Shown here: positions 36,184 through 60,657 of the stretch, piece after piece | Position numbering within the stretch: the stretch's first letter is position 1 | Layout of the letters: each line of letters opens with the position of its first letter | Assembly: GCF_023712105.1 (NCBI RefSeq) | Contig: NZ_JAMLJI010000001.1 | Location: 434,001-498,000, forward strand | DNA: 64,000 nt | Origin: Larsenimonas suaedae | GTDB lineage: Bacteria; Pseudomonadota; Gammaproteobacteria; Pseudomonadales; Halomonadaceae | Reading direction: 5' to 3' | Notes under the pieces: generated by a model | What the model was told of the DNA's origin: nothing | Database searches by the model: none | What the model saw: only the letters and a program-made list of their open reading frames with translations | Made by a program: the position numbers and the translations under genes

Positions 36184-37770
36184 ATGCCAACTACCGCCGT
36201 GTCGCAAGAAGCCGCCAAACGACGCACCTTTGCGATCATCTCTCACCCCGATGCGGGCAAGACCACCATCACCGAAAAGCTTTTGTTGTTCGGAAATGCC
36301 ATTCAGGTGGCCGGTGCCGTCAAGAGCAAGCGCGACGCCCGAAGCACCACCTCCGACTGGATGAAGATGGAGCAGGAGCGCGGCATCTCGGTGACGACCT
36401 CAGTCATGCAGTTTCCCTACAAGGGCCGCATGGTCAATCTGCTTGATACGCCTGGTCACGAAGATTTCTCCGAAGACACCTACCGCACGCTGACGGCCGT
36501 CGATTCCGCGCTGATGGTGGTCGATGGCGCCAAGGGCGTTGAGGACCGCACCATCAAGCTGATGGAGGTCTGCCGGCTCAGAACCACGCCGATTCTGACA
36601 TTTGTGAACAAGATGGATCGCGACATTCGCGACCCGATCGAGGTGATGGACGATATTGAAACCACGCTCAACATCCAGTGCGCGCCCATTACCTGGCCGA
36701 TCGGCATGGGCAAGCAGTTCCGGGGCGTCTATCACATTCTCAATGACACCGTGCACCTCTATCAGCAGGGGCAGGGCAACCGGATCCCGGATGACGTCTT
36801 CATCGAAGGGCTTAATAACCCGAAGGTGGATGAAGCGCTTGGCGAATACGTCGCTCAGGAGCTTCGTGACGAGATCGAGCTGGTCCAGGGGGCATCCCAT
36901 GAGTTCGACCTCGAGGCGTATCTGCGGGGTGAATTGACGCCTGTGTATTTCGGCACCGCCATGGGGAATTTCGGCGTACGGGAAATGCTTGACGGGTTCG
37001 TGGAGTATGCGCCCAAGCCGCAGCCACGCGACACCGATGCCCGTGAAGTCGAGGCAGACGATGAGCGTTTCACCGGCTTCGTGTTCAAGATTCAGGCCAA
37101 CATGGACCCCAAACACCGCGACCGCGTGGCGTTCTTGCGAGTGTGTTCGGGCAAGTACGAAAAGAACATGAAGATGCGCCATGTGCGCATCAAGAAAGAC
37201 GTCAAGATCGCAGACGCCCTGACCTTCATGGCCTCTGATCGGTCCCACGTCGAGGAAGCCTGGCCCGGCGACATAATCGGCCTGCACAACCACGGCACGA
37301 TCCAGATCGGCGACACCTTCACGCTCAGCGAAGACATGCGCTTCACCGGTATTCCGCACTTCGCACCGGAGCTCTTCAAGCGCGTGCGCCTGAAAGACCC
37401 GCTCAAGATGAAGCAGCTTCAAAAGGGCTTGCAGCAGCTGTCCGAGGAGGGCGCGACACAGGTCTTCATGCCGCTCAACAACAACGACCTGATCGTCGGT
37501 GCCGTGGGCAGTCTGCAGTTCGATGTGGTCGCACACCGGCTCAAGGACGAATACAAGGTGGACTGCATCTACGAGCCGATCAATGTTCAGACGGCGCGAT
37601 GGGTGTATGGCGACGAACGCAAGATCGACGAGTTCCGAAACAAGACCGCCGAAAACCTTGCAATCGATGGCGGTGGTTACCTGACGTATCTGGCCCCGAC
37701 CCGGGTCAATCTCCAGCTGACGCAGGAGCGCTGGCCTGACCTGCGCTTTTCCGCCACGCGCGAGCACTGA
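36184..37770 (+). CDS. prfC: Peptide chain release factor 3
   Basis: A 528-residue translational GTPase (E. coli 529) that recycles RF1/RF2 from the ribosome. GTPase motifs: G1 [13 protein letters not shown] (about 20-32), G3 DTPGHEDF (about 88-95) and G4 NKMDRD (about 142-147). Domains II and III with the NVQTARWV segment follow. It starts at the ATG at 36184 ([23 protein letters not shown]; the GTPase start [11 protein letters not shown] is typical). A terminator closes the gene. Confidence 0.97.
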
Positions 37771-41111: not shown

Positions 41112-44840
<3,729 letters not shown>

Positions 44841-45001
44841 TATTACTGGATGATCGGCCGGGGCCGGCGCGGGGTAGAGTATCAGACCCGGCCTTGCCTG
44901 CGGCGGTGAAAATTACCCGATCAAAATACTCGGGAATTGTCCCTGATGCGGATCATGGCGTACCATAAAGCCAATTTCCGCATTGTATCCAGGGGATATT
45001 C

Positions 45002-45589
45002 ATGAGCGATAGCATCGAATTTACCGATAACGCGCAGGAGTACCTGTCCGAGCTTTTGGCCAAGCAGGACGTCGAAGGCATCAGCGTGCGCGTTTTCATC
45101 ACGCAGCCCGGTACACCCTACGCCGAAACCTGCCTGGCGTACTGCCGTCCGGGCGAGGAAGAGCCGACTGACATCAAGCTCGAGCTCGACAAGATCACCG
45201 TACTTCTGGAAAAGCACAGCGAGGCGTTTCTCGAGGAAGCGGTCGTTGATTTCAACAAGGACCGCATGGGCGGCCAGCTGACGATCAAGGCGCCCAACGC
45301 CAAGATGCCGAAGGTCAGCGCCGACAGCCCGATGGAAGATCGCATCAACTATATCCTCTACAGCGAAATCAATCCGGGACTTGCCGCGCACGGCGGTGAA
45401 GTCAAGCTGATTCAGCTGACCGAGGATAATGTGGCCGTTCTGCAGTTCGGTGGTGGGTGCCAGGGCTGCGCCGCGGTCGACGTCACGCTCAAGCAGGGGG
45501 TCGAGCGCACCATTATCGAGCGCATTCCCGAAATTACTGCCGTACGCGATGTGACCGACCACTCCGACACCACCAACGCCTACTATTAA
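45002..45589 (+). CDS. nfuA: Fe-S biogenesis protein NfuA
   Basis: Carries and delivers Fe4S4 clusters to target proteins, especially under iron or oxidative stress. The 195 residues have an A-type-like N-terminal domain (1-95; cysteines in [10 protein letters not shown]) and a C-terminal Nfu domain with the cluster-binding CxxC at C153/C156 in [11 protein letters not shown]. The gene is divergent from metH. It ends in an AT-rich tail and a terminator. Confidence 0.95.
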
Positions 45590-45618
45590 TTGATAATTAG
45601 TAATTACTACTATTAATT
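45580..45618. repeat. Short direct repeat at the end of nfuA
   Basis: CTACTATTAATT occurs at 45580-45591 and 45607-45618, 27 bp apart, in an AT-rich stretch. The first copy includes the nfuA stop codon TAA. Possible small duplication. Confidence 0.6.
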
Positions 45619-45655
45619 AGTGATGGCTGAGCCGCGCATGTGGCTCGGTTGAATC

Positions 45656-45685
45656 AAAAAAGCGCCCTTGAGGGCGCTTTTTTTT
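45656..45685. terminator. Bidirectional terminator between nfuA and the KfrA-like gene
   Basis: AAAAAAGCGCCCT (45656-45668 region) pairs with AGGGCGCTTTTTT around TG. There are T-runs on both strands, and the flanking genes converge on it. Confidence 0.9.
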
Positions 45686-45845
45686 GTGCTCACATTACCT
45701 GTTTTGCATCGGGCATTTGGTTGGGGGTATAATCCAGTAAGCCTCGCTGGCTGCCTCCACCCGGAATTGTACCGACACGGACTTGCAGACCCGCGGGGCA
45801 TTTTTGTATCCAGCATCGGCATCCCCCGCCGTGTGAGTTCCTGGT

Positions 45846-46808
45846 CTAGATGTAAGGCGGCAACGTCGTCCGTGAAAGGCGCTCCTGCAGAACGCGGAGC
45901 TCGGTCTTGATACGGGCGTTTTCCCGCTCCTTTTCATCGAGCAGTTTGGTCTGGCGCTGTTCGCGCTCGCTGGTTTCGCGAAGGGTCTGCTGAGCCTGCT
46001 GAGTTTTCCATTCCGCCTCGCGTGCCTTGCGCTCCTCATTCTGGGCGTTCTGGCGCATGGCTTCGAGCTGCTGATTGAGCCGATCGATGCGCTCCTCGAG
46101 TTGATCCGTCTTGCGACGCGTCTGTTTCTCGATGTCCGTTTTTTCCTGGCGAGCAGCGTCGAGCAGTTGCATCAAGCGATTCTCGGCCGTTTCGTGACGG
46201 CTTTCTTCCTGCGCGAGCTGTTTCTTGCGCGTCTCTTCCATCTGGGCAACAACGTGCTGGTGATCTTCCTCCTGCTGAGTGCGCTCCTTGCTCAAGGCCT
46301 CGATCTGCTCATCGCGCGTATCTAGGCGCGCCTGCAGGTCATCAATGTGCTTGCGCGCCTGAGCCAATTCGTGATCGCGGTGGGCGAGTGCCGTGGTCTT
46401 TTCTTCAAGCCGCGCCTGTACCTGATCGAAGCGCTCGCCGAGTGCACTGAGACGTTGCTGCGCGTCTTCGGTCATCCGCTTGGCCTGGCCTGCGTCAGTG
46501 TGGGCCTCTTCGATGCGTTCATCGGCCTGCTTTCGATAGAGCGCCAACGCCTCGAACGCCTCTTCCTGTGCCTGTTGCCACAGCCCGTTAAGGGCTTCTT
46601 GAAGGCGGTCGGGCGGTGACTGGGGCAGCGGCTGATCCCGGTTTTCGGTGCGCCGTGTCCGCCACTCCCGAAGGTGGTCACTGATGGTGGTGAAGCTCCC
46701 GGTGCCAAGCGTTTCACGAATGCGCTGAACGCTTGGCGACTCGCCGCGTTGCAGCAGTGCCTCGATGGCGCGCTGCACATCGTCGTAGCTGATCCCTGCT
46801 CGAGCCAT
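45846..46808 (-). CDS. KfrA-like coiled-coil DNA-binding protein
   Basis: A 320-residue protein with an N-terminal KfrA-type DNA-binding domain (about residues 4-115: ISYDDVQRAIEALLQRGESPSVQRIRETLGTGSFTTISDHLREW in pieces ISYDDVQRAIEALL, GTGSFTTISDHLREW) followed by a long, almost uninterrupted heptad region (about 85-310) rich in E, Q, R and K. The domain order is that of plasmid KfrA proteins, which bind their own promoter and form filament-like complexes to aid plasmid maintenance. No plasmid genes lie nearby. It is divergent from a tyrosine recombinase, with a palindrome in the shared 245-bp promoter region. Confidence 0.85.
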   Translation of the reverse strand: MARAGISYDDVQRAIEALLQRGESPSVQRIRETLGTGSFTTISDHLREWRTRRTENRDQPLPQSPPDRLQEALNGLWQQAQEEAFEALALYRKQADERIEEAHTDAGQAKRMTEDAQQRLSALGERFDQVQARLEEKTTALAHRDHELAQARKHIDDLQARLDTRDEQIEALSKERTQQEEDHQHVVAQMEETRKKQLAQEESRHETAENRLMQLLDAARQEKTDIEKQTRRKTDQLEERIDRLNQQLEAMRQNAQNEERKAREAEWKTQQAQQTLRETSEREQRQTKLLDEKERENARIKTELRVLQERLSRTTLPPYI

Positions 46809-46879
46809 GGTGAGTAACTCCCTGATCCCTGCGTTGTCATTTATGCCTGCTTTATACGCCGAGAATAGCCGAGGTCCGT

Positions 46880-46919
46880 CGTAAAATAAAGGTTTTTACG
46901 TATTACGTAATATGTAAAA
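46880..46919. promoter_or_regulatory. Near-perfect 26-bp palindrome plus extra half-site (candidate KfrA operator or recombination site)
   Basis: The 26 bases at 46894-46919 form an inverted repeat of 13-bp arms with one mismatch; the left arm is TTTTACGTATTAC. A further half-site, CGTAAAA, is at 46880-46886 in the opposite orientation to the left arm, giving three related half-sites. The site is 86-111 bp upstream of the KfrA-like start and 135-160 bp upstream of the recombinase start. KfrA proteins bind inverted repeats in their own promoters, so an operator is the first guess. Confidence 0.55.
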
Positions 46920-47053
46920 TACACTACGAAGTACAATTAAAATTCAAGATTACGCGGCTTATCTTGAGTTTATCGGGCCGAGTGACTTAGTGTGGGTATC
47001 AAAACTAAAGCAGGGCAAAAAGCGCCCTGAAAGAGCGTGTTAGAGGGAACTCG

Positions 47054-48232
47054 ATGAGCGTAAGAGGAGAGGGCGTGGGCGATAGGACCTTTGCACCGCT
47101 TGAGGTGAGTAACGAGCAGGCGCTGATGACTGGCACAAGGGGTGCCGGTACGGAGGGATCAGGGCTTGTCGAGGCCAACAACGACCGGGAAGCCGTGCTT
47201 CAGTGGCTGCTCGAGTACCGCCAAAGCCCGAAAACCCTGCGTCATTATCGCAAGGAGGCCGAGCGCTTTGTGCTGTGGCTGGAAGCGCAGGCGCTGACGC
47301 TTAACAACCTTAAGCGGTCGCACATCGACGCGTTCGATCGATTTCTGGAAGATCCGCAGCCGGCCTCGGTGTGGGTTGGGCCGACTCGCCCGCGTCATCA
47401 TCCAACGTGGCGCCCGTTTCGGGGTGGGTTATCGCCTGCGAGCCGGCGTCAGGCGCTGGTGATCCTGCAAAGTTTGATGAGCTGGCTTCAGCAGGGCGGC
47501 TGGGTTCGCCACAACCCGTTTTCATTGATTCGAGACCGAGCGCGCCGATTCAACAACAGCGCACGCCCGGTGGAGCGCTACTTCGAACGCGATCAGTGGG
47601 CTCAGATTTGGACGCGGTTGAATCGTCCGCACGCAGAGCAAGGTGATTCACGCGAGCGCTTCGAGGCGCAGCGCCTGCGGTTCATGTTCGGGTTTGCCTA
47701 CCTGTTGGCGCCACGCATCAGCGAGATGAGCCAGGCGCGCATGAACGATTTTTTTCTGCATGAAGGTCAGTGGTGGTGGCAAGTGGTGGGAAAGGGCGAT
47801 AAGTGGGCACGCCTGCCGGTCCCCGCCGATATGATGGCGCTACTTGGGCAGTGGCGGGCAGCACTTGAATTGCCGCCGGAACCTGGCCCAATGGAGGATG
47901 CGCCGGTGCTGCGCGCACTGGATGGCAAGCGGGGGCTCAGTGACAATCAGCTCTACCGGTTATTCAAGCAGGCCTACTCAGCCCTTGCCGATGAACTCGA
48001 CGCATCAACCCCAGATGAGCAGCGCCTCGTGCAGCGGCTTCGAGCCGCCACACCACACTGGTTGCGCCATACGTCGCTGACGCATCAGGCGCAGGCCGGC
48101 ATCGAGCTTAGATACCTCGCTCTGAACGCGCGCCACGCGCGTCTTGAAACCACGGCGCGCTATCTCCACGCCGAGAGCGATGAGTGGCAGCAGCAGCAGA
48201 GCCGTCATGGTCTGACAACGGACGTACCGTGA
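47054..48232 (+). CDS. Tyrosine recombinase (site-specific integrase)
   Basis: A 392-residue site-specific recombinase. The N-terminal SAM-like DNA-binding domain (about 40-150) is followed by the catalytic domain with the full active-site set: R221 in APRISEM, K247 in VGKGDKWARL, H335 and R338 in HWLRHTSLTH, H361 in NARHARLETTARYLH and nucleophile Y370. It is longer than XerC/XerD (about 300) and has a glycine-rich N-terminal tail. GAGGG lies seven bases before the ATG at 47054. It has no phage or transposon neighbours; its only partner is the divergent KfrA-like gene. The target site is unknown. Confidence 0.9.
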   Translation: MSVRGEGVGDRTFAPLEVSNEQALMTGTRGAGTEGSGLVEANNDREAVLQWLLEYRQSPKTLRHYRKEAERFVLWLEAQALTLNNLKRSHIDAFDRFLEDPQPASVWVGPTRPRHHPTWRPFRGGLSPASRRQALVILQSLMSWLQQGGWVRHNPFSLIRDRARRFNNSARPVERYFERDQWAQIWTRLNRPHAEQGDSRERFEAQRLRFMFGFAYLLAPRISEMSQARMNDFFLHEGQWWWQVVGKGDKWARLPVPADMMALLGQWRAALELPPEPGPMEDAPVLRALDGKRGLSDNQLYRLFKQAYSALADELDASTPDEQRLVQRLRAATPHWLRHTSLTHQAQAGIELRYLALNARHARLETTARYLHAESDEWQQQQSRHGLTTDVP

Positions 48233-48313
48233 TTCGATGCGCCTTACGAGTGGCACGCTCGTCGAGTTTGCCAACGCCCGTTATAATGCTCGTCACGCGA
48301 CCAAGGAGATGTC

Positions 48314-48724
48314 ATGAGCACGAGTGATGCGCAGCAGGAACTTATCGATGAATTCGAGATTTTCGACAATTGGATGGATCGGTACCAGTATCTGATCGAC
48401 ATGGGCAAGGCGCTGCCCGAATTTCCCGACGCGCTTAAAACCAGCGACACTCGAATCGAAGGCTGCCAATCCCAGGTCTGGATTCACGAGCAGCTGGAAG
48501 ACGGGCGGCTGCATTTTCAGGCCACCTCCGACGCCGCTATCGTTTCCGGGCTGATCGCGGTATTGATGCGGATCTACAACGATCGAACGCCGGCTGAAAT
48601 CATGGCAACCTCAACGGATTTCCTGCAGGCGCTCGGATTGGATAAACACCTGTCGCCCACGCGCAGCAATGGCCTGCATGCAATGCTTGACCACATCTAC
48701 CAAAGTGCGCGCGTGCACCAATAA
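48314..48724 (+). CDS. SufE-like sulfur acceptor for cysteine desulfurase
   Basis: A 136-residue sulfur-transfer protein (SufE/CsdE family). The active cysteine is C51 in RIEGCQSQVW, the family motif. SufE takes persulfide from SufS or CsdA and hands it to the Fe-S scaffold. No suf or csd genes are nearby, so it could be SufE or CsdE. AAGGAG precedes the ATG at 48314. Confidence 0.9.
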   Translation: MSTSDAQQELIDEFEIFDNWMDRYQYLIDMGKALPEFPDALKTSDTRIEGCQSQVWIHEQLEDGRLHFQATSDAAIVSGLIAVLMRIYNDRTPAEIMATSTDFLQALGLDKHLSPTRSNGLHAMLDHIYQSARVHQ

Positions 48725-48733
48725 CCCAGGCGT

Positions 48734-49030
48734 TCAGTGCCGGTGAGTGCTATTGCGCTCACCGTTCGCGGGCGGCACCGGATCGATGCCGCCCTCATGC
48801 CAGGGGTGGCATTTTGAAAGACGCTTCAAGGCCATCCAGCCGCCCTTGAACGGCCCATACTGCGAGATTGCCTCGAGCGCGTAACTCGAGCAGGTGGGGT
48901 AGAACCGACAGCTGGGCCCAGTCAGTGGGCTGATAAAAAGCTGATAGCCCCTGATCCCTTTCTTGAAGACCCAGGCCAACCCGATCTTTGCAGTGTTCCA
49001 GGCGCGCTCAGCGATCCTTTCGCTGGCCAT
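48734..49030 (-). CDS. yidD: Membrane protein insertion efficiency factor
   Basis: A 98-residue protein of the YidD family that aids YidC-mediated insertion. The conserved core is [26 protein letters not shown] and [19 protein letters not shown], in which the cysteines are typical. An amphipathic N-terminal helix ([19 protein letters not shown]) is present. The ATG at 49030 has GGAG upstream and overlaps the end of hisI by 23 bases. In most gammaproteobacteria yidD sits between rnpA and yidC; here it is with hisI and znu genes. Confidence 0.92.
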
Positions 49031-49466
49031 AAAGGGTCTCCGGATCGACGTCGGGCGCGGTGGTGATCGTACTGTCCGTACGATCAAGCTGATGATAGAA
49101 GCAGCTTTTGCGCCCGGTGTGACAGGCCGGACCCAATTGATCGACCAGCAGCAGAAGGGTATCGCCATCGCAATCAAGATGAGCGGATTTGAGCACCTGC
49201 ACCTGGCCGGAAGACTCGCCCTTGCGCCAGAAGCGCTGACGCGAGCGCGACCAGTAGCACACCCGGTGTTTCTCGAGCGTTTCAGTCAATGCATCGCGGT
49301 TCATCCAGGCCATCATCAGTACTTCCCGGCTATCAAACTGCTGAGCGATGGCCGGAATCAGGCCGTCGTCGTTCCAGGGAATGGCGTCCAAAAGTGTATC
49401 AGTAGTGGTTTTGGTGCCGGGCGCGGACTTTTCGAGCGCGCGAAAAAGCGCGAGAGACGAGGGCAT
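49008..49466 (-). CDS. hisI: Phosphoribosyl-AMP cyclohydrolase
   Basis: Third step of histidine synthesis. A 152-residue monofunctional HisI (no HisE domain). The zinc and metal cysteines are in [11 protein letters not shown] (one Cys) and [13 protein letters not shown] (two Cys), and the core [31 protein letters not shown] fits the family (segments [22 protein letters not shown]). The N-terminal tail of about 25 residues is longer than usual, but AGGAAG right before the ATG at 49466 supports this start. It lies 21 bp behind znuB. Confidence 0.93.
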
Positions 49467-49487
49467 CTGACTTCCTGTAGGTGGTAA

Positions 49488-50321
49488 TTAACTGCGCAAA
49501 CGTTTTAACAGCAGGGAGAAAAAATAGCTGACACCACAGACTAGAACAATGGTCGCACCCGAAGGCAAATCCGACACCCACGAAATGCCCATACCGATGA
49601 ACACGAACGCACCGCCGGCGATCGAGGCAAACAGCATCATCTTGCCGAGCGAGCCGACGTGATGGCCGGCGAGCGCCGAGGGCAGGGTCAGAAGGGCAAT
49701 GACCATGATCAAGCCAACCGCCTGCAACAAGATGACCACCGTAATCGCAACCAGACACAGCAGCAGCAGGTAGAGCGCCTTGGTTGGCACGCCGCGAAGG
49801 CGCGCGAATTCGTCATCGAAAATGACCGCGGTCAAGGGCTTGTGCACAAACAGTAAAAGCGCACCAATCACTGCAACGACGAGCGCTAGAAGCGGCGCAA
49901 GCCCGGACGGCGTCAGCAGAAGGTTGCCGAACAGATAGCTGGTCAGATTGGTTGCGTAGCCGGGCGTCTGGCTGATGAACAAGACCCCGGTGGCCATGCC
50001 AACGGCCCAGAACGCGCTGATGAGGGTATCTTCGTGATCGGCCTGATTGAGGCTGATGACCCCGATGATCAAGGCGGAGATGATCGCGCAGATAAAGGCG
50101 CCAAGAATCGGTGAGGCGCCAAGAAAGTAGGCAATCCCCATGCCCGCAAGCACGGTGTGCGCGATGCCGCCACCAAGGTAGCCAATACGCTTGACCACGA
50201 CATACGGCCCGACAAGCCCGCCGGCCGCGGCCGCAAGTAGTCCAACGATCAGGGCGTTCAAGAGAAACGACTGGTGCGCGAGGGCGTAGAAGAAATCCTG
50301 CAGAGCCAAGGTGATACCCAT
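49488..50321 (-). CDS. znuB: Zinc ABC transporter permease
   Basis: A 277-residue inner-membrane permease of the ABC-3 family with about eight hydrophobic segments; it forms the translocation channel with ZnuC. Family signatures GGLVGPYVVVKRIGYLGGGIAHTVLAG and NPVIA-like region are visible (RIGYLGGGIAHTVL). Its ATG overlaps the znuC stop by one base, so it is coupled. Confidence 0.92.
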   Translation of the reverse strand: MGITLALQDFFYALAHQSFLLNALIVGLLAAAAGGLVGPYVVVKRIGYLGGGIAHTVLAGMGIAYFLGASPILGAFICAIISALIIGVISLNQADHEDTLISAFWAVGMATGVLFISQTPGYATNLTSYLFGNLLLTPSGLAPLLALVVAVIGALLLFVHKPLTAVIFDDEFARLRGVPTKALYLLLLCLVAITVVILLQAVGLIMVIALLTLPSALAGHHVGSLGKMMLFASIAGGAFVFIGMGISWVSDLPSGATIVLVCGVSYFFSLLLKRLRS

Positions 50322-51049
50322 CAGTGGTGGTGGTGAACCATTTGTACCTGTTCACCGTAGAGCTGGTTGATTGTGTCGGCTGTCACGGCCTCGGTCGGAT
50401 GCATGATCAGCTGTTTATTGAGACACGCGACCCGATCGACGTAGTCACTGATAAAGCCCAGATCGTGCGAGATGACCATGACGGTCATCTCGCGCTTGAG
50501 CTCGCTGAACAACTCGAAAAGCGTCGTTTCTCCATCCCGGTCGACGCTTGCCGTCGGCTCATCGAGCAGCAGAATGCGGGGCTCTGCGGCAAGTGCCCGG
50601 GCAATCAATACCCGTTGCAGCTGTCCGCCTGACAGGGCATCCACCGGTTTATGGCGCAGGTGGTCGATGCCGAGTCTCTCAAGCGTGGGCGTGATCGAGT
50701 CGCGGTCGCGCCGCCGCCAGGGCAGCAGCATGCGCCCGCGCTTCAAGCGCCCCATCAACACGACATCTTCAACACTGATCGGAAAGGCGCGAGCAAATCG
50801 AGCGAACTGAGGCACATACCCAAGCTGCCTCGCCGCCTTTCGAGGCGAGGTGCCAAGCACCTGTACCTCGCCGCTCTGTGGCGGCAGCAAGCCCAGAATC
50901 AGTCGAAGCAGTGTGCTTTTACCGCCGCCGTTGGGGCCAATCAGCCCCAGAAATTCGTGGGGCTGAACATCGAGGCTGACATTTTTAAGGACATGCTCGG
51001 TGCCAAACGCAAAGGAGACCTGGTCGAGCGAGATAACGGGTTGGCTCAT
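50321..51049 (-). CDS. znuC: Zinc ABC transporter ATP-binding protein
   Basis: A 242-residue ATPase that energises zinc import with ZnuB. Walker A is [14 protein letters not shown] (about 37-50), the Q-loop follows in QLGYVPQ, the signature is LSGGQLQRV, and Walker B is [14 protein letters not shown] histidine-rich C-terminus (MVHHHH) is present, as in many ZnuC proteins. It is three bases behind znuA. Confidence 0.94.
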
Positions 51050-51052
51050 CGA

Positions 51053-52021
51053 TTATCCGTCTTGATTCGAAAAGCCGCGCTTCAAGGCATCGGCAATGTG
51101 TTCGAGGTTGCTCAGGTAGTCGGGGCTCAACGGGTCGATCGCAACCACCGTGCCATCGATTTCATCGGCAAGCCGTGACGCGATGCGCGTAGAGAATTGC
51201 TTTTGAATGAAAATGGTATGGATGTTCTGGTCATGTGCGGTCTTGATCAGTGCGTTGAGTGCCTGAGGCGTAGGTTCACGGCCGTTGAGTTCGATGGGAA
51301 GCTGGTTGAGCCCGAACCGGTCGCCGAAATACCCGAACGCCGGATGATAGACCATGAAGCTTTGCCCCTTGTATGGCGCAAGCTCGCGCTCAATCGAGTC
51401 TGTGGTGTGCTCGATCTTCTGGATCAGCGCCTGTTCGCGCGCCTCGATGGCCTCAGCCTGATCGGGCAGGGCATCGCTCAAGGCATCCGCGGCAGTCTGT
51501 GCCATGACGATCATATTGTCGGGGTCAAGCCAGACGTGGGGGTCCGGCTGCCCTTCGTGATGACTGTGGCCGTGGCTTGCCTGATGCTCGTCATGATGGG
51601 CATGTTCATGCGCGTCATGTCCGTGGCTTTCGTGGCTATGCGCGCCATGTGCATCAGCGCCGCTTGCAGACTCGGCGTGGGCTTCGATGGCGCGCTTTTT
51701 AAGGCCTTGATCGAGATGAAAAACCTTCATCTCAGGCGCACGTTGCTCGAAGCGCTCAAGCCAGGCCTGCTCGAACGGGACGCCGATAGCGAAGTAAAGC
51801 GTTGACTGCGTAAGCGTTGAGAGTTGGCGAGGTGAGGGGGAAAAGTCCTCGGGCTCTTTGCCTTCCTCAACCAGCGCCTGAACCTCGACCGAATCGCCGC
51901 CGAGCTGCTCGATCAGCCATTTTTCGGGCAAAATGCTGGTCGACACCTGAAGCGGTGCGGCCATGACGGGCAAGGACGTAACAAAAAGGGCAGTGCTTAC
52001 GACAAGGGCTTTAACATTCAT
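51053..52021 (-). CDS. znuA: Zinc-binding periplasmic protein with histidine-rich loop
   Basis: A 322-residue cluster A-I substrate-binding protein. A signal peptide ends near residue 21 (SLPVMAAP). The histidine-rich loop at about 115-155 contains about 15 histidines and is followed by PDPHVWLDP, whose histidine is a zinc ligand, and later YHPAFGYFGDRFGL. The first ligand position, normally PHDYEPS-like, reads EPEDFSPSPRQ here, so the usual histidine is replaced by glutamate or aspartate. It heads znuACB and has a perfect Zur-type box 40-58 bp upstream of its start. Confidence 0.93.
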   Translation of the reverse strand: MNVKALVVSTALFVTSLPVMAAPLQVSTSILPEKWLIEQLGGDSVEVQALVEEGKEPEDFSPSPRQLSTLTQSTLYFAIGVPFEQAWLERFEQRAPEMKVFHLDQGLKKRAIEAHAESASGADAHGAHSHESHGHDAHEHAHHDEHQASHGHSHHEGQPDPHVWLDPDNMIVMAQTAADALSDALPDQAEAIEAREQALIQKIEHTTDSIERELAPYKGQSFMVYHPAFGYFGDRFGLNQLPIELNGREPTPQALNALIKTAHDQNIHTIFIQKQFSTRIASRLADEIDGTVVAIDPLSPDYLSNLEHIADALKRGFSNQDG

Positions 52022-52060
52022 GCGGGCGATCCGGTTAGAGTGGCTGACGATGCGTACGCA

Positions 52061-52079
52061 AATGTTATACTATAACATT
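52061..52079. promoter_or_regulatory. Zur box in front of znuA
   Basis: AATGTTATACTATAACATT, a perfect 19-bp palindrome with a single central base (9+1+9), ending 40 bp upstream of the znuA start. The wording matches the gammaproteobacterial Zur consensus (GTTATA-N-TATAAC core). It should repress znuACB when zinc is ample. Confidence 0.85.
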
Positions 52080-52100
52080 GTTGGTCAGTACAATGCGCCG

Positions 52101-52544
52101 TCAGTGGCATTGACGGCACAGACCCAGTAGCTCAATGGTCTGCCGTCGAATTGAAAAGCCATATTCGGACGCCACGCCGTCAAGATGTTCAGACATGCGC
52201 TCGTCGTGAAGCTCCTCGACGTTGCCACATTCCTGACAAATCATCAGCTGAAACCCGCGCTTGTGATCGGGGCACGGGCACGCTACATAGGCATTAAGGG
52301 ATTCGATGCGGTGAATAAGCCCGAGTTCCAACAGAAAATCCAGCGCCCGGTACACCGTTGGCGGTCGCGCCGAGGCATGCTCCTTTGCGAGCAGGTCGAG
52401 GATATCGTAGGCCTTGACGCCTGAGTCCGAGCCGGCAATCAATTCAAATACGCGCTTTCTGATCGCGGTGAAACGAACGCCCTGGTCCGCACAGCGCTGC
52501 TCGGCCGCGGTCAGCATGTCCTTCAATGAATGAGCATGAGTCAT
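52101..52544 (-). CDS. zur: Zinc uptake regulator, Fur family
   Basis: A 147-residue zinc-sensing repressor. The winged helix is in RFTAIRKRVFELIA and ARPPTVYRALDFLLELGLIHRIES, and the structural zinc cysteines are in ICQECGN and CRQCH at the very C-terminus, typical of Zur. The start is the ATG at 52544 (E. coli Zur 171 residues, here slightly shorter); an upstream frame extension is not supported. It is directly upstream of znuA on the same strand. Confidence 0.9.
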   Translation of the reverse strand: MTHAHSLKDMLTAAEQRCADQGVRFTAIRKRVFELIAGSDSGVKAYDILDLLAKEHASARPPTVYRALDFLLELGLIHRIESLNAYVACPCPDHKRGFQLMICQECGNVEELHDERMSEHLDGVASEYGFSIRRQTIELLGLCRQCH

Positions 52545-52581
52545 TAAATAAAGCCACCGGTAGATCGGGAAGAAAAACGAC

Positions 52582-52601
52582 GGGTGATAACATAACATCT
52601 C
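52582..52601. promoter_or_regulatory. Second Zur-like box, upstream of zur
   Basis: On the minus strand the sequence GAGATGTTATGTTATCACCC matches the E. coli znuA/znuC Zur site at about 16 of 20 positions. It ends 38 bp upstream of the zur start and could give Zur autoregulation. It is less symmetric than the znuA box. Confidence 0.5.
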
Positions 52602-52914
52602 TCGTGCCGTCAGCACACGCTATGCTCTGAACGTCGTCGGCTTCAAGCCCAATCGGAAACCCTGGCGCGCCTGGTTTCAAGGCGGTACGACCCGCTTGCC
52701 GCAATGCACTGCCTGACGCGTCCATGGTGTTCATTGACCGTCTTTTGACCAAACCGTTCATGTGCACGGTGGTGATCCATACGCCCGCCGGTATTGACGG
52801 TTGACCCGGGCGCGCATCGATAATACGCGCATTCACCGCGTGGCGGCGCGGGCGCATGCCGGGCGGTGTGTGTGGCCCGCGACGCGCTCATCATTTACTT
52901 ATCAAGGCGTTTAA
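52602..52914. other. Intergenic region between zur and the DAACS symporter
   Basis: With the Zur-like box to the left, this 313-bp stretch holds no convincing gene. Short frames exist on the minus strand but lack ribosome binding sites. Weak promoter-like sequence (TTGACG near 52795, GATAAT near 52820, spacing long) may serve the symporter. Nothing else seen. Confidence 0.5.
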
Positions 52915-54225
52915 ATGAAGTCACTCGTTCGAGTCTATCTCGACTCCTCTTTGATTCTACGTGTCACCATTGCTCTGGTGCTGGGACTTGGCGCCGGGTT
53001 ATTGGGGGGCGAGACCTTTGCTGCCTGGGTGGCGCCACTGGGCGATTTGCTGCTGCGCCTTTTGCAGTTTCTGATCGTACCGATTGTATTGTTCACGCTG
53101 ATTGTGGGCATCAATCAGGCCGAACTCGGGCGTCTTGGGCGCATGGGCGGAAAGGTTTTTGTCTACTACGTGGCGACCTCGGCAATGGCGATCGTGATCG
53201 GGCTTGCCGTCGCGTCAGTGCTCTCACCGGGCAGCGGCATGCAGCTTGATGACAGCGCGGCTATTTCAGTGCCTGAAAATCCGGGCATTGTCAGCGTGCT
53301 GCTGTCGATCGTGCCCGACAATATTGTCTCCGCGATGGCCAAGCCCAACCTGTTGGGCATTATCTTCACCGCCTTTGTGTTTGGCATTGCGCTTTTAAAG
53401 CTTCGGCAGTACGGGGCGGCAACCAGGGGCGACGCGTCGAGCGCTCATGGGGTCAACGAAACGTCCGATGGAAAGCGCCAGAGCGAACTTGCGGAAAAGC
53501 TTTATGTGGTGATCGAGGGTTTGAACGCGGTAACGATGAAGGTGATGGCGGGGGTGCTGCACGTCGTACCCATTGGCGTGTTTGCCATCGTGACCGGTAC
53601 GGTTGCCAGGCAGGGATTTGGCACGATTCTTTCCCTTGGCAACATGGTACTGGTGCTCTATTTGGCATTGGCCGTGCATCTGGTGTTTTATTGCCTGCTG
53701 ATGAAAGGGTTCGGAGTGCGACTTGGGGCGTTTTTTCGCGAGGCACGTACGCCCATGGCAACCGCATTCGCCACCCAGAGCAGCAGCGGCGTATTGCCAT
53801 TAACGCTGAACGCGGCTCAGCGCCTTAAGCTGCCACGGAGCCTTTACGCCTTCAGTCTGCCTCTTGGAGCAACCGTCAACATGGACGGCGCCGCGATTCG
53901 GATTGCAATCTCGGCGGTTTTTGCAGCCAACGTGGCGGGCATTCCACTTGATCTCACCAGCATGCTCGAGATCGTTCTGATCGGTACACTTACCTCGATC
54001 GGCACCGCCGGAGTCCCGGGGGCTGGAATCGTGATGATCGCCACGGTTTTTGCACAAGTTGGCCTGCCGATCGAGACGGTGGCGCTTTTGACGTCAATCG
54101 ATGCGCTGGTTGGCATGGGTTGTACCGCGCTTAATGTCACTGGCGATTTGACCGGGAGTGCGATCATCGCGCGCACCGAAGCTCAAACCGACGATGAGGC
54201 TTATTCGGCGGATTCGATGTCGTAA
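52915..54225 (+). CDS. Dicarboxylate/amino acid:cation symporter (DAACS family)
   Basis: A 436-residue glutamate/dicarboxylate-type importer with eight membrane helices and two hairpin loops. The family signatures are visible: ATQSSSGVLPLTLNAAQRL (hairpin 1 serine-rich motif, around 283-301, in pieces TQSSSGVLPL), PLGATVNMDGAAI (the NMDG sodium-binding motif, about 318-330) and GTAGVPGAG (hairpin 2). Substrate may be glutamate, aspartate, serine/threonine or C4-dicarboxylates. AAGG lies before the ATG. A strong hairpin follows its stop. Confidence 0.9.
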   Translation: MKSLVRVYLDSSLILRVTIALVLGLGAGLLGGETFAAWVAPLGDLLLRLLQFLIVPIVLFTLIVGINQAELGRLGRMGGKVFVYYVATSAMAIVIGLAVASVLSPGSGMQLDDSAAISVPENPGIVSVLLSIVPDNIVSAMAKPNLLGIIFTAFVFGIALLKLRQYGAATRGDASSAHGVNETSDGKRQSELAEKLYVVIEGLNAVTMKVMAGVLHVVPIGVFAIVTGTVARQGFGTILSLGNMVLVLYLALAVHLVFYCLLMKGFGVRLGAFFREARTPMATAFATQSSSGVLPLTLNAAQRLKLPRSLYAFSLPLGATVNMDGAAIRIAISAVFAANVAGIPLDLTSMLEIVLIGTLTSIGTAGVPGAGIVMIATVFAQVGLPIETVALLTSIDALVGMGCTALNVTGDLTGSAIIARTEAQTDDEAYSADSMS

Positions 54226-54241
54226 ATCTCGAGCACTATGG

Positions 54242-54274
54242 CCCAGTCACTGGCGTGTTTTGCCAGTGACTGGG
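54242..54274 (+). terminator. Strong hairpin after the DAACS symporter gene
   Basis: CCCAGTCACTGGC (54242-54254) pairs perfectly with GCCAGTGACTGGG (54262-54274), loop of seven bases. No T-run follows. It closes the symporter transcript by shape. Confidence 0.6.
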
Positions 54275-54618
54275 TCACTTGAATCGTAACGGTTAATGGA
54301 GCCACGTTGAGCCGGACTGACTGTCGGGCTGGATTGACTGACGAATCCAGCGTGAGTTGCGCAGGGCACAATGATCATGAATATGGGGGGAGCAGCCAGC
54401 CTAGGTAGAGTAGATACCCAGAGAATCTAATATGTGTTAGATGCTTTGCAATACTATATTTAACATAATATATATTATGCGAAGTTATCAGGCGGCCATG
54501 TTCTGTGCCGAATCGCTTGTTACCTGTGCGTTTGGCGCGGTTCGGTCAAATGCCTGGCAGTGAACTGTGGCAATGAAATCGGGTCATGGTAAGGTCGAGA
54601 GGAATTTTCTGGAGGAAA
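54275..54618. other. Gene-free region containing the dif-like site
   Basis: A 344-bp stretch without a gene. Its middle part (about 54410-54480) is much richer in A and T than the surroundings and contains the dif-like site described separately. Otherwise only the GGAGG ribosome binding site of the next gene is seen. Confidence 0.7.
54459..54486 (-). other. dif: dif-like XerC/XerD chromosome dimer resolution site
   Basis: Read on the minus strand, an 11-base arm ACTTCGCATAA, a 6-base spacer TATATA and an 11-base arm TTATGTTAAAT follow each other. The second arm equals the XerD-binding arm of E. coli dif at all 11 bases; the first matches the XerC arm at eight of 11 (E. coli GGTGCGCATAA) and fully fits the gammaproteobacterial consensus RNTKCGCATAA as I recall it. 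The spacer differs from E. coli TGTATA by one base. The site is intergenic and AT-rich. XerCD resolve chromosome dimers here under FtsK control, so it marks the terminus region. Confidence 0.9.
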
Positions 54619-55173
54619 ATGAACATGCGCTACCTCATGCGAATGGCGCTATGTGTTGGATTGAGTTTCAGTGCACATACCGTTTTCGCGTCATGCGAGA
54701 CGACCATCGATATGATTGCCGGCAAGATTCACGAGAACGGCGTGCCCTACAATCAGTTCAGTCTGCACGCCATCCCGGCCGCTCAAGCTGAAAACGCAGA
54801 AGGCACCATTGTCGGACGCTGCGGCAATAATCGGCTTCGTATCCTCTATACACGCCATGCCCCGAAGGCTCAGGCCGAACATGGGCCCGAGTCCGAAAGC
54901 GCCATCGAGGCGCAAAAGGAAGATGCATCACGCCCGGATGCACACTCGTCGAACGCACCGGCTGCGACCGAACCCTCGGCGTCAGCGCCTGACGATACTT
55001 CCGAGTCATCAACTCGTCAGCATGGCACTTACAAGGCCGCGCCTTCCCAGGATGCCGGGCAGCGATCGGATGATCTGACTCGCCATAAAAATACGGCGTC
55101 AACGTCCAGTGTCCCCAAAGACAAGGACATTTTCGAAGACGGCAAGGATGGCACGCCCTGGTATCTCAAATAA
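54619..55173 (+). CDS. Secreted DUF1161 protein with low-complexity tail
   Basis: A 184-residue exported protein. The signal peptide (MNMRYLMRMALCVGLSFSAHTVFA) is followed by a short DUF1161-type domain with SCETTIDMIAGKIHENGV and VGRCGNNRLRILYTR, whose two cysteines could form a disulfide. The rest (about 85-184) is a disordered, S, A, P, D, H and E-rich tail that ends DGTPWYLK. GGAGG lies directly before the ATG at 54619; an earlier start at 54586 lacks one. The function is unknown. A terminator follows. Confidence 0.75.
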   Translation: MNMRYLMRMALCVGLSFSAHTVFASCETTIDMIAGKIHENGVPYNQFSLHAIPAAQAENAEGTIVGRCGNNRLRILYTRHAPKAQAEHGPESESAIEAQKEDASRPDAHSSNAPAATEPSASAPDDTSESSTRQHGTYKAAPSQDAGQRSDDLTRHKNTASTSSVPKDKDIFEDGKDGTPWYLK

Positions 55174-55203
55174 GCTTTTGTTGGATACACAGTGGATCGA
55201 CAA

Positions 55204-55234
55204 AAGAAAACCCGCCGATTTGGCGGGTTTTCTT
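55204..55234. terminator. Bidirectional terminator between the DUF1161 gene and ectC
   Basis: AAGAAAACCCGCC (55204-55216) pairs with GGCGGGTTTTCTT (55222-55234) around GATTT. It ends the plus-strand DUF1161 gene and the minus-strand ectABC transcript. Confidence 0.88.
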
Positions 55235-55280
55235 GTCTGGCCAGGAAATATCTCAGACCAGGTTTCTGTAGGCAGCCGAT

Positions 55281-55676
55281 CTAGGCGTCGGGCGCGGCAT
55301 AGGAGCCATCGTCTCTATGAATTTCACGGCCGGTCAGCGGCGGATTGAACACGCACGCAACCGTCATGCCCTGCTCCTTGCCTCTGAGCCAATGCTCATC
55401 GTGCTGATCCAACAGGTACATGTCGCCTGCCTTGATGGTGTACTTCTTGCCATCGGCAATGGTTTCGACCTCGCCCTCGCCTTCATAACAAAACACGGCT
55501 TCAATGTGATTCTTGTAGTGAATGTGGGTTTCTGTCCCCGGATAAATTCGGGTGATGTTGAATGAAAACCCACAGTTATCGTCGGCAAGCATCAATCGTG
55601 TGCTGTCCCAGTTGCCGTTTTCCGCTTCAACGAACCGTTCTGAATTGCGGCATTGTTCCAGGTTTCTAACAATCAC
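55281..55676 (-). CDS. ectC: L-ectoine synthase
   Basis: Last step of ectoine synthesis: cyclises N-gamma-acetyl-diaminobutyrate. A 131-residue cupin. The metal-binding residues of the cupin barrel fit the segments [29 protein letters not shown] (pieces [10 protein letters not shown] and [11 protein letters not shown]) and [12 protein letters not shown]. Family N-terminus [27 protein letters not shown] is present. It is the third gene of ectABC, 95 bp behind ectB. Confidence 0.97.
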
Positions 55677-55771
55677 GAAGTACCCTCCAGGTCGTGGCGC
55701 TTAAGCGCCGTCGATGTCGAAAAAAGCGTCAACCATGTTGCCGGCGTTTATCGGTTGCCGACCCTATTGAT

Positions 55772-57687
<1,916 letters not shown>

Positions 57688-57718
57688 GCCGTTCGTCGTA
57701 GATGAAGGATTAAGCAAT

Positions 57719-57765
57719 AACCATAACAATGAGTTATCGGCTTATCAAATTTTTTTGTTATGGTT
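57719..57765. promoter_or_regulatory. Inverted repeat in the ectA promoter or leader
   Basis: AACCATAACAA (57719-57729) and TTGTTATGGTT (57755-57765) are perfect 11-bp inverted repeats 25 bp apart, centred about 55 bp upstream of the ectA start. The surrounding 100 bp are AT-rich, as expected for an osmotically controlled promoter. It could bind a dimeric regulator or form an mRNA stem. Confidence 0.5.
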
Positions 57766-57834
57766 TGAATTTTTTCCCATAAAATAAAATTATCCATTGT
57801 GCCGGGTTCTCGTGTACTCCTAAGGTCTATCCAT

Positions 57835-57864
57835 AAAAAAACGCCGCATGAGCGGCGTTTTTTT
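57835..57864 (-). terminator. Intrinsic terminator after gor
   Basis: AAAAAAACGCCGC (57835-57847) pairs with GCGGCGTTTTTTT (57852-57864) around ATGA. On the minus strand it ends the gor transcript before the ectABC promoter. Confidence 0.92.
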
Positions 57865-57881
57865 ATGACGTGCTTCGTTTG

Positions 57882-59246
57882 TCAATGGCGCGTGACGGAA
57901 CGCATGGTCACGAATTCCTCGGCACTGGTCGGGTGAATTCCAACGGTTGCATCAAAATCGGTCTTGGTAAGTCCGGCTCGCACCGCGATGGCCATGCCCT
58001 GAATCAGCTCTCCGGCCTCATCACCGACCATATGAACACCCAGCACCTTGTCGGAAGCGTCATCGACGATCAGTTTCATGAAGCAGCGTTCATCACTGCC
58101 TGACAACGTATGTTTCATCGGTTTGAAATCGGCGGTGTAGATCCGAATTTTTTCAAAGCGCTCGCGAGCGCTCTCTTCACTTAGGCCTACCGTACCAATG
58201 TTGGGGTGGCAGAATACGGCGGTCGCCACCTTATCGAGCTCAAGTGCCGGCAGCGTGCGCTCGTCGCTGAAATGCCACTCGACCAGGCGCATGGCCTCTT
58301 CAAGCGCCACAGGCGTCAGCTCTGGCCCCTCGATCAGATCACCGAGGGCCAGAATCGACGGTGTGGAGGTCTGATAGTGCTCATCAACGGCCACCTTGCC
58401 CGAAGGCGTCATGTCGATATGAACATTGTCGAGCCCGAGCCCGTCGAGATTGGGCTTACGCCCGGTGGCACCCAGGACAGCATCTACGGTGAGCACGTCG
58501 CCGGTAGTCAGCGTGACGTCAAGTTCCTGACCGCGTGCATCGATGCGTTCGATGTTGGTCTGAAAATGCAGGTTGACGCCCTTCTTGGCCATTTCATCGC
58601 GCGTGAACTCGCGCACTTCATTATCAAAGCCGCGCAGGAAGAGATCGCTTCGATAGATCAGATGCGTCTCTGCGCCGAGTCCATTGAAGATGCTGGCGAA
58701 CTCGACGGCGATATAGCCCCCGCCCAACACCAGAAACCGCTTCGGAAACGATTCAAGGTCAAACACTTCGTTGGAATTGACCACGTGCTCCTTGCCCGGA
58801 AACTCCGGCACCCATGGCCAGCCGCCGGTCGCCAGCAAAATCTTTTTCGCCGTGTGACGTGCGCCGTTGACCTCGACTTCATTGGGTCCGATAACCGTTG
58901 CCCGGCCATCGATCAACGTGACGTCGGAGTTATCGAGCAGTTTGCCGTAAATGCCGTTCAACCGCTCGATCTCACGGGTCTTGTTGTCGCGCAGTGTCGC
59001 CCAATCAAAGCGCGGCGCGTCATCGAGGCTCCAGCCATAGCCTTGGCTATTTTTGAAGTCGCTCTGAAAATGCGCGGCGTAGGAATATAATTTTTTGGGC
59101 ACACAGCCTACATTGACGCAGGTGCCACCGAGGTAGCGGTCTTCGGCCACGGCAACGCGGGCGCCTTTCGAAGCCGCCGTGCGCGCAGCGCGTACACCGC
59201 CCGAACCGGCACCGATAACAAACAGGTCGTACTCAAAACTGGACAC
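57882..59246 (-). CDS. gor: Glutathione reductase (GTG start)
   Basis: NADPH-dependent reduction of glutathione disulfide in the cytosol. A 454-residue flavoprotein. The FAD motif [14 protein letters not shown] (about 11-24), the redox-active disulfide [13 protein letters not shown] (about 39-51), the NADPH site [13 protein letters not shown] and the C-terminal catalytic His-Glu in [10 protein letters not shown] are all present. The GTG at 59246 has GGGAG eight bases upstream and gives the family length; no ATG fits. It is divergent from can. Confidence 0.95.
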
Positions 59247-59361
59247 TAATAAAGCTCCCTGATGGATAGTTGTGTAGTCACGGATCAACTACAGACGTTC
59301 GATTTGGGGGTCATTATACTAGCTGTGCAATTCACTCAAGACGTATTAAGGGCTAAAACCG

Positions 59362-60027
59362 ATGAGCAAAAGCATTTCTCCTGATATTCAGAAGCTATTG
59401 GAACAAAATAGAAAATGGTCAGAGGAGATGCAGACGCAGGACCCTGCCTTTTTCGAGCGCCTATCCAGGCAGCAAACCCCCAAGTTTCTCTGGATAGGCT
59501 GCAGTGACAGCCGGGTGCCGGCCAACCAGATCATTGACCTTCCGCCGGGAGAGGTGTTCGTTCACCGAAACGTGGCCAATATCCTCCATCACAACGACAT
59601 GAACGCCCTGTCGGTGATCCAGTACGCAGTCGATGTACTGGGCGTCGAACACATCATGATTGTTGGTCACTACGGTTGCGGGGGGGTCCGAGCGGCGCTG
59701 GATGGGGATGAATGCGGCATCGTCGATTACTGGTTGCACTCGCTGAGACAGCTCAGCGCCATGCACCGCAGCGAACTGTCACCGCTACCGATCGAACAGC
59801 AGGCCGATCGTCTGTGTGAACTCAACGTTATGGCGCAGGTCAGCAATCTCTGTTCAACCAAAATCGTTCAGCGCGCCTGGGCACGCGGTCAGAACCTGTC
59901 GATTCATGGCTGGTGCTATAGCCTGAGCAATGGCCAGGTCAAGGATCTTGAATGCTCACAAGATAGGCTCGATGAAATCGATCAGCTCTACCGATTCGAC
60001 TTCATCAAGCCCGTTGGCGACGCCTAA
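59362..60027 (+). CDS. can: Beta-carbonic anhydrase
   Basis: Converts CO2 to bicarbonate in the cytosol. The 221-residue beta-class enzyme has the zinc ligands C47 with D49 in GCSDSRVPANQ, and H103 and C106 in GHYGCGGV. It resembles E. coli Can in size and in the SALSVIQYAVDVLGVEHIMIVGH region (here ALSVIQYAVDVLGVEHIM). The gene is convergent with msrA, whose stop is three bases away. Confidence 0.95.
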   Translation: MSKSISPDIQKLLEQNRKWSEEMQTQDPAFFERLSRQQTPKFLWIGCSDSRVPANQIIDLPPGEVFVHRNVANILHHNDMNALSVIQYAVDVLGVEHIMIVGHYGCGGVRAALDGDECGIVDYWLHSLRQLSAMHRSELSPLPIEQQADRLCELNVMAQVSNLCSTKIVQRAWARGQNLSIHGWCYSLSNGQVKDLECSQDRLDEIDQLYRFDFIKPVGDA

Positions 60028-60030
60028 GCC

Positions 60031-60657
60031 CTAGGCAATCGGGCAGCTGACGCCAGTGCCCTTGAGACCGCAATACCCCGCTGGATTCTTGCTCAAGTAC
60101 TGCTGATGCTCCGTTTCAGCAAAGTAGAATGTCTCCAGCGGTTCGATCTCCGTGGTCACCTTGCCCACTCCCGCCTGATCCAGCGCCCGTTCGTACTCAC
60201 GGGCGCTGGCCTTGATCTTCTCGAGCTGATGGGCGTCGGTGTAATAGATGACCGATCGGTACTGAGTGCCGACATCGTTACCCTGACGCATGCCCTGTGT
60301 CGGGTCGTGGGACTCCCAGAAAATACGCAGGAGCTCGGGCAGACCGATGATGGTCGGGTCGAATACGACACGCACCACTTCTGCGTGGCCGGTTCGCCCC
60401 GAACACACTTCCTTGTAGGTAGGGTTCGGTGTCAGGCCGCCGGCATAACCCACCGCCGTGACCCACACGCCTGGCGTTTGCCAGAACAGCCGCTCGGCTC
60501 CCCAGAAACAGCCAAGTCCCAGCACGATCTCTTCATGGCCGCTTGGATACGGTGAAACGATCGAACGCCCGTTGACGTGATGCTCGGTAGCCACCGGCAT
60601 TGACGTATTCCGGCCGGGTAAGGCCGTTTCGGCGGTCGGCATGGTCGATAGACCCAT
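60031..60657 (-). CDS. msrA: Peptide methionine sulfoxide reductase A
   Basis: Repairs S-methionine sulfoxide in proteins. The 208 residues have the catalytic C50 in [10 protein letters not shown], the substrate region [25 protein letters not shown] (pieces [14 protein letters not shown] and [11 protein letters not shown]), the family TQYRSVIYY and the resolving cysteine near the C-terminus in [14 protein letters not shown] lies eight bases before the ATG at 60657. It starts only three bases behind the tamB stop, so it is probably co-transcribed with tamB. Confidence 0.95.

Follow-up and report, generated by a model that had tools for sequence, protein, structure and literature searches.

The question raised by this locus is whether a 28-bp motif, situated in a gap between genes and close to the ectoine genes of Larsenimonas suaedae (Halomonadaceae), is the dif site of the chromosome, and whether the window (i.e. 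the whole stretch of 64,000 nucleotides that was analysed, bases 434001-498000 of contig C1 in a genome of 3.22 Mb and 8 contigs) accordingly lies at the replication terminus. The motif, its parts and its immediate surroundings are positioned in the window as follows:

54458-54485, minus strand: dif site of 28 bp, ACTTCGCATAA TATATA TTATGTTAAAT
54475-54485, minus strand: predicted XerC-type arm, ACTTCGCATAA, assigned by comparison with the dif sites of the family
54469-54474, minus strand: central region TATATA, shared with both congeners (G001, G002) and with many further genomes of the family
54458-54468, minus strand: predicted XerD arm, TTATGTTAAAT
52915-54225, plus strand: SDF-family (sodium:dicarboxylate symporter) gene (PF00375), left flank of dif
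54586-55173, plus strand: DUF1161 gene (PF06649), right flank of dif
55281-57729, minus strand: ectC (55281-55676), ectB (55772-57037) and ectA (57112-57729)

We could confirm that the 28-mer is a real dif and that it had been read correctly: it shows the 28-bp, 11-6-11 layout with a conserved XerD arm (present as a single copy within the 64-kb window), it is non-coding and low in G+C (23 of the 28 bases are A or T), and it lies in a 360-bp gap (54226-54585) that extends from the end of the SDF-family gene (54225) to the first possible start of the DUF1161 gene (54586), 0.8 kb away from ectC. An earlier, sequence-only reading of this stretch had described a XerD arm, a TATATA spacer and a XerC-type arm within an AT-rich, gene-free gap; its letters and its minus-strand orientation are borne out, while its coordinates (54459-54486) were one base off. 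On a dif profile built from 21 dif sites of the family (the own site being excluded, and 4 of the 21 being letter-identical to the 28-mer) the site scored 55.9 bits.

The core of the site (CGCATAA-N6-TTATGTTAAAT) is perfectly matched in two places of the own genome, namely the window site, which is the only chromosomal copy (C1), and positions 43728-43751 of the circular contig C6; the third-ranked match has 3 mismatches. Across the family, the core (at most 1 mismatch) was recovered from 135 of 151 genomes and from 21 of 24 genera, being present exactly once in 134 genomes and twice in the own genome (G000) only, and the reversed core, which served as control, was found in 0/151. Both congeners (G001 and G002) carry the chromosomal site alone. 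Of the 16 genomes in which the core is absent at this threshold, 10 were checked in stretches near the KfrA or the recombinase gene (see below): five of them (G144, G050, G134, G067 and G111) have an intact XerD arm next to an altered XerC arm, G023 (g22) has a weaker dif candidate (24.9 bits) with a degraded XerC arm, and no dif was found in the stretch near these genes in G053 (g3), G025 (g24), G029 (g5) and G124 (the stretch comprising 40 kb near the KfrA gene in G053, G025, G029 and G023). Within g3, the core at no more than 1 mismatch was missing from 6/6 genomes sampled. Outside the family, the perfect dif core was seen with diverse spacers in at least 120 viral contigs, which presumably represent dif-exploiting phages together with host flanks.

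KOPS motifs (GGGNAGGG), which would steer FtsK to dif, were mapped on both sides of the site. Three of them fall within the window:

36769-36776, plus strand: KOPS GGGNAGGG, pointing toward dif (C1:470769)
49680-49687, plus strand: KOPS GGGNAGGG, pointing toward dif (C1:483680)
51464-51471, plus strand: KOPS GGGNAGGG, pointing toward dif and nearest before it (C1:485464)

The first reversed KOPS past dif is located outside the window (C1:501986). Over 320 kb (C1:290001-610000), 25 of the 26 KOPS are oriented toward dif (17 forward and 1 reverse to its left, 0 forward and 8 reverse to its right; p = 6e-6 by Fisher test on these counts), and the best switch interval (485464-501986) encloses dif at C1:488470. 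This polarity (96%) ranks first among 11,473 gapped words of the same form with at least 20 sites, the next one reaching 90%. The same arrangement recurs in the congeners, for which 140 kb were covered: 5 forward and 0 reverse KOPS to the left of dif and 0 and 4 to its right in G002, and 10 and 0 to the left and 2 and 10 to the right in G001 (i.e. with 2 forward KOPS on the wrong side of dif). With regard to the matS consensus, none was present in the 320 kb of C1, which gave 1 relaxed match.

The sequence-only reading had also looked to a GC-skew switch near this position, and this expectation holds in a looser form: a cumulative skew peak is present in the 320 kb examined (C1:519522), but it is found 31 kb past dif (0.96% of the genome) and is separated from it by a weak skew plateau. 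The offset is looser than usual, since it exceeds the third quartile (21.4 kb; median 7.3 kb) of the dif-to-skew-peak distances given for 161 chromosomes in PMC2731167. In the 140 kb examined for each congener, the distance is likewise 31 kb in G002 and 0.9 kb in G001, and we count dif as lying near the peak. The offset does not contradict a dif at the terminus, and PMC3025954 argues that replication termination occurs near, and not at, dif. As the dif regions of the own genome and of G001 are collinear (blastn), the shift of the peak reflects base composition and not gene order. The opposite contig strands of dif in these two genomes had suggested that the block is inverted in one of them; this idea was rejected on the same blastn collinearity, the contig being merely reversed. 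From the end of dif (54486) to the end of the window (64000) and on to C1:519522, the skew remains weakly positive for 31 kb although the KOPS are already reversed. The own genome offers a case in which dif is marked better by KOPS polarity than by GC skew. In the own genome dif and dnaA are on separate contigs (C1 and C2, respectively); in G001 they share one contig (dif at C1:1630330, dnaA at C1:68988) and are 1.56 Mb apart, approximately 47% of the 3.3-Mb genome.

The inventory of the recombination machinery comprises XerD (C3:434388-435248, 374.7 bits against a cut-off of 329.6), a second Xer-like protein (C4:364858-365703, 247 bits against the XerD model), which, as scored against the XerD model only, is presumably XerC, and an FtsK_gamma domain above its cut-off (C3:74835-75014); the same trio is encoded by both G001 and G002. 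By analogy with E. coli, the window dif would be bound by XerCD and would be the place of FtsK activation and dimer resolution. At cell division, FtsK, guided by the dif-pointing KOPS on both replichores, would pair the dif sites of a chromosome dimer and would activate XerD through its gamma domain, and strand exchange by XerC and XerD in the 6-bp central region would release two monomers. On account of the site itself, its single-copy conservation, the KOPS switch, the Xer and FtsK-gamma genes and the nearby skew switch, we assign a probability of roughly 97% to the reading that the chromosome possesses a single dif, at which KOPS-steered FtsK and XerCD resolve chromosome dimers without any need for the KfrA/recombinase pair. 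The position of the window at the replication terminus, as claimed from the sequence, is supported by the same conservation, KOPS switch and Xer/FtsK genes and by the roughly opposite location of dnaA in G001, and an exact dif placement is thereby gained for a Larsenimonas genome.

That the window site is an ordinary chromosomal dif of known kind is well supported. With the gammaproteobacterial dif/XerCD/FtsK system (as typified by E. coli) it shares the 28-bp length, the 11-6-11 layout, the TTATGTTAAAT XerD arm and the CGCATAA inner XerC arm, together with the non-coding, AT-rich context, one chromosomal copy, converging GGGNAGGG motifs and the presence of genes for XerD and FtsK-gamma. It departs from the E. 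coli dif (outer XerC arm GGTG, spacer TGTATA) in its outer XerC arm ACTT and its spacer TATATA, and from the usual gammaproteobacterial dif in the skew peak being 31 kb off. Furthermore, a dif of the same kind and with the same spacer is given for Hahella chejuensis in PMC2731167. No match was obtained in the open-licence literature for dif, Halomonas, XerC and KOPS together.

Three other explanations of the locus have to be weighed against this reading. The AT-rich surroundings could be taken to favour a chance match of the 28-mer in an intergenic gap; yet, even at 3 mismatches, the dif pattern has an expectation of only 0.01 per window (a match turned up in one shuffle out of 100) and the actual site has 0 mismatches, the best of 20 mononucleotide-shuffled windows reached 9.9 bits on the profile (vs 55.9), and the single-copy conservation, with the reversed controls at 0/151, refutes coincidence. 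We thus regard its probability as negligible, in keeping with the original estimate that such a match was very unlikely by chance. It is also highly improbable, if somewhat less so, that the 28-mer represents the dif-like attachment site, or a scar, of an integrative element exploiting XerCD, the true dif being elsewhere (on C6 or not yet found). Elements of this type are known (IMEX; PMC5357621), the viral contigs mentioned above do contain dif-type cores, and the own genome does hold a second core on C6. Against this stand the single-copy occurrence of the core in relatives from 21 genera (mostly with the same flanking genes), the switch of KOPS polarity at the window site and the congeners, in which only the chromosomal site is present. 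A better dif match elsewhere, which the sequence-only reading had set as the result that would speak against it, was looked for, and the other perfect core proved to have the lower score (35.0 vs 55.9 bits) and to be part of a separate, circular phage replicon.

The third explanation concerns two genes of the window that lie upstream of the symporter gene:

45846-46808, minus strand: KfrA_N protein gene (PF11740)
47054-48232, plus strand: tyrosine recombinase gene, below both the XerC and the XerD cut-offs

According to it, this pair is functionally bound to dif, as a dedicated recombinase or organiser of the terminus, and its linkage to the site is indeed tight. The recombinase (67.5 bits against NCBIfam XerC, cut-off 335; 42.1 against XerD, cut-off 329.6) has matches in 127/151 genomes of the family (E <= 1e-40); in all 114 genomes that have both, it shares a contig with the dif core (at a median distance of 5.5 kb and never more than 50 kb) and is transcribed toward dif, in 107 of the 114 from the XerD-arm side. 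Moreover, a KfrA homologue is encoded by 148/151 genomes (E <= 1e-15), and 25 of 28 genomes have a TACGTA-type repeat in the 300 bp upstream of KfrA, as compared to 24 of 1080 random 300-mers (drawn from the same regions, not A+T-matched). The linkage of 114/114 looked strong, and a dif-linked recombinase was rejected when the neighbourhood control showed other genes to be equally or more tightly held: in 22 genomes from 21 genera, considering genes up to 20 kb away from dif, we counted metH in 20, KfrA in 18, the recombinase and ectB in 17 each, a glutathione-reductase-like gene in 16 and ectA in 15, all as lower bounds due to crude picking of open frames (in G061 the recombinase and KfrA were missed though they lie within 20 kb), and the ectB homologue is even closer to dif (median 1.3 kb in the 17 genomes). 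ZnuB was uninformative as a control gene, with matches in 21/151 genomes only (E <= 1e-60). In addition, genomes of genus g4 have dif and KfrA but yielded no recombinase match at E <= 1e-40, and canonical Xer genes are encoded by the own genome. What keeps the pair near dif is the conservation of the entire block from metH through dif to ectABC; in itself the pair is not special, and we consider a functional bond to be improbable, though not as strongly so as the two preceding explanations. The proposal that the genome map can be oriented around ectABC and the KfrA/recombinase pair does hold family-wide, as conserved gene order.

Between the KfrA and recombinase genes (46893-46920) repeated TTACGTATTACGTAA-type palindromes were observed. 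In the own genome, the KfrA promoter is the sole place within 320 kb at which TTACGTATTACGTAA is matched with no more than 2 mismatches, and this motif (and its TACGTA form) is a probable KfrA operator; no terminus-wide distribution of the KfrA motif was found in these 320 kb. Such a restriction to the KfrA promoter fits self-regulation better than a marking of the terminus, even if G001 has 1 extra 2-mismatch copy adjoining dif. Along the window (41112-60657) the order is metH, KfrA, recombinase, dif, ectC-B-A, a reductase-like gene and an msrA-like gene, and this block is largely kept across Halomonadaceae genera (metH, the glutathione-reductase-like gene, nfuA and msrA being putative names given from sequence). 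In this family dif is accordingly flanked by metH, KfrA and the recombinase on one side and by ectABC on the other, in a gene order that is largely conserved, which makes the ectoine genes a handy landmark of the terminus.

While the chromosomal dif is itself ordinary, the site on C6 was the unexpected part:

C6:43724-43751: dif-type site, AGTTCGCATAA TCATCA TTATGTTAAAT, 35.0 bits on the dif profile

It is flanked by open frames on both sides (43343 and 43872), and 4/6 of its spacer positions are different from those of the chromosomal TATATA. The ends of C6 (74,886 bp) overlap by 123 bp and a 3632-aa frame runs across the junction, which gives a circular assembly of 74,763 bp. Its gene content places it among N4-like phages (Schitoviridae), as it includes a giant virion RNA polymerase (phrog_2206, the 3632-aa frame), an N4-type primase (phrog_2135), a portal protein (phrog_1216) and a major head protein (phrog_1357), alongside a large terminase, a further RNA polymerase protein and a Sak4-like protein. 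C6 furthermore encodes ParA and a Rep3 initiator. The KOPS on C6 gave no signal (8/14 toward its site).

Among 72,556 plasmid records the only one with a primase related to that of C6 was Acinetobacter baumannii pRBH2-3 (75,126 bp, circular), which encodes ParA as well as a serine resolvase and whose nearest core-like stretch has 4 mismatches; among 275 family genomes, a related primase was found in the own genome and in G291 only. The contig of the latter (C16, 75.9 kb) encodes a ParA homologue (47% identity) and has its best core match at 5 mismatches, and in it neither a blastp hit to the C6 Rep3 nor an end overlap was found. The core (at most 3 mismatches) and Rep3 were absent from 20 viral records, several of them fragments, taken from the best 80 of 87 primase matches. 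A search of viral contigs for the C6 Rep3, which reaches close relatives only, returned 6 pattern matches and 0 relatives, and at the DNA level neither an 8-kb stretch at the C6 dif region (among phages) nor a 20-kb one (among plasmids) found a match. The relatives may use other modules in place of a Xer site, such as the serine resolvase of pRBH2-3.

Taken together, these features make C6 a likely phage-plasmid; it might otherwise be a carrier-state infection in which the site stays unused. The fuller proposal, to which we give slightly less than even odds, is that this N4-like phage persists as a circular plasmid by means of Rep3, ParA and a second working Xer site at which the host XerCD resolves its multimers, and that its spacer blocks recombination with the chromosome. 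Within the phage-plasmid reading, it is the difference at 4/6 spacer bases that would stop recombination with the chromosomal dif. According to PMC10654107, N4-like viruses had been considered strictly lytic with some pseudolysogeny; in that paper lysogeny is proposed on the basis of an integrase with other genes and of proviruses, and the word plasmid does not appear. Among the literature matches listed, all open-licence papers, none concerned an N4-like phage that is kept as a plasmid and bears a dif-type site. A sole match combined phage-plasmids with the dif site and XerCD, and by its title it deals with terminus breaks in E. coli; for N4-like, Schitoviridae and phage-plasmid together the last term occurred only in a reference list. 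If true, such a phage-plasmid, relying on a Xer site served by host recombinases, could matter beyond annotation, and its route to lysogeny would differ from the one proposed.

Two known systems bear on the C6 site only. The Rep_3 plasmids of A. baumannii carry Xer sites (xrs/pdif), of which the type with a T/CCGCCA spacer recombines without FtsK (PMC11705084); a dif-type site and a Rep_3 initiator are common to these plasmids and to C6; the TCATCA spacer of C6 resembles the FtsK-independent one described there. In contrast to these plasmids, C6 has 1 site instead of several, its genome is that of an N4-like phage, and the activity of its site is predicted only. With the IMEX (CTXphi, VGJphi and others, as described in PMC5357621) C6 shares a phage-borne dif-like site; unlike them, it is an assembled circle and not integrated at dif, its spacer has the 4/6 difference, and it constitutes a 74.8-kb genome of a tailed and not of a filamentous phage.
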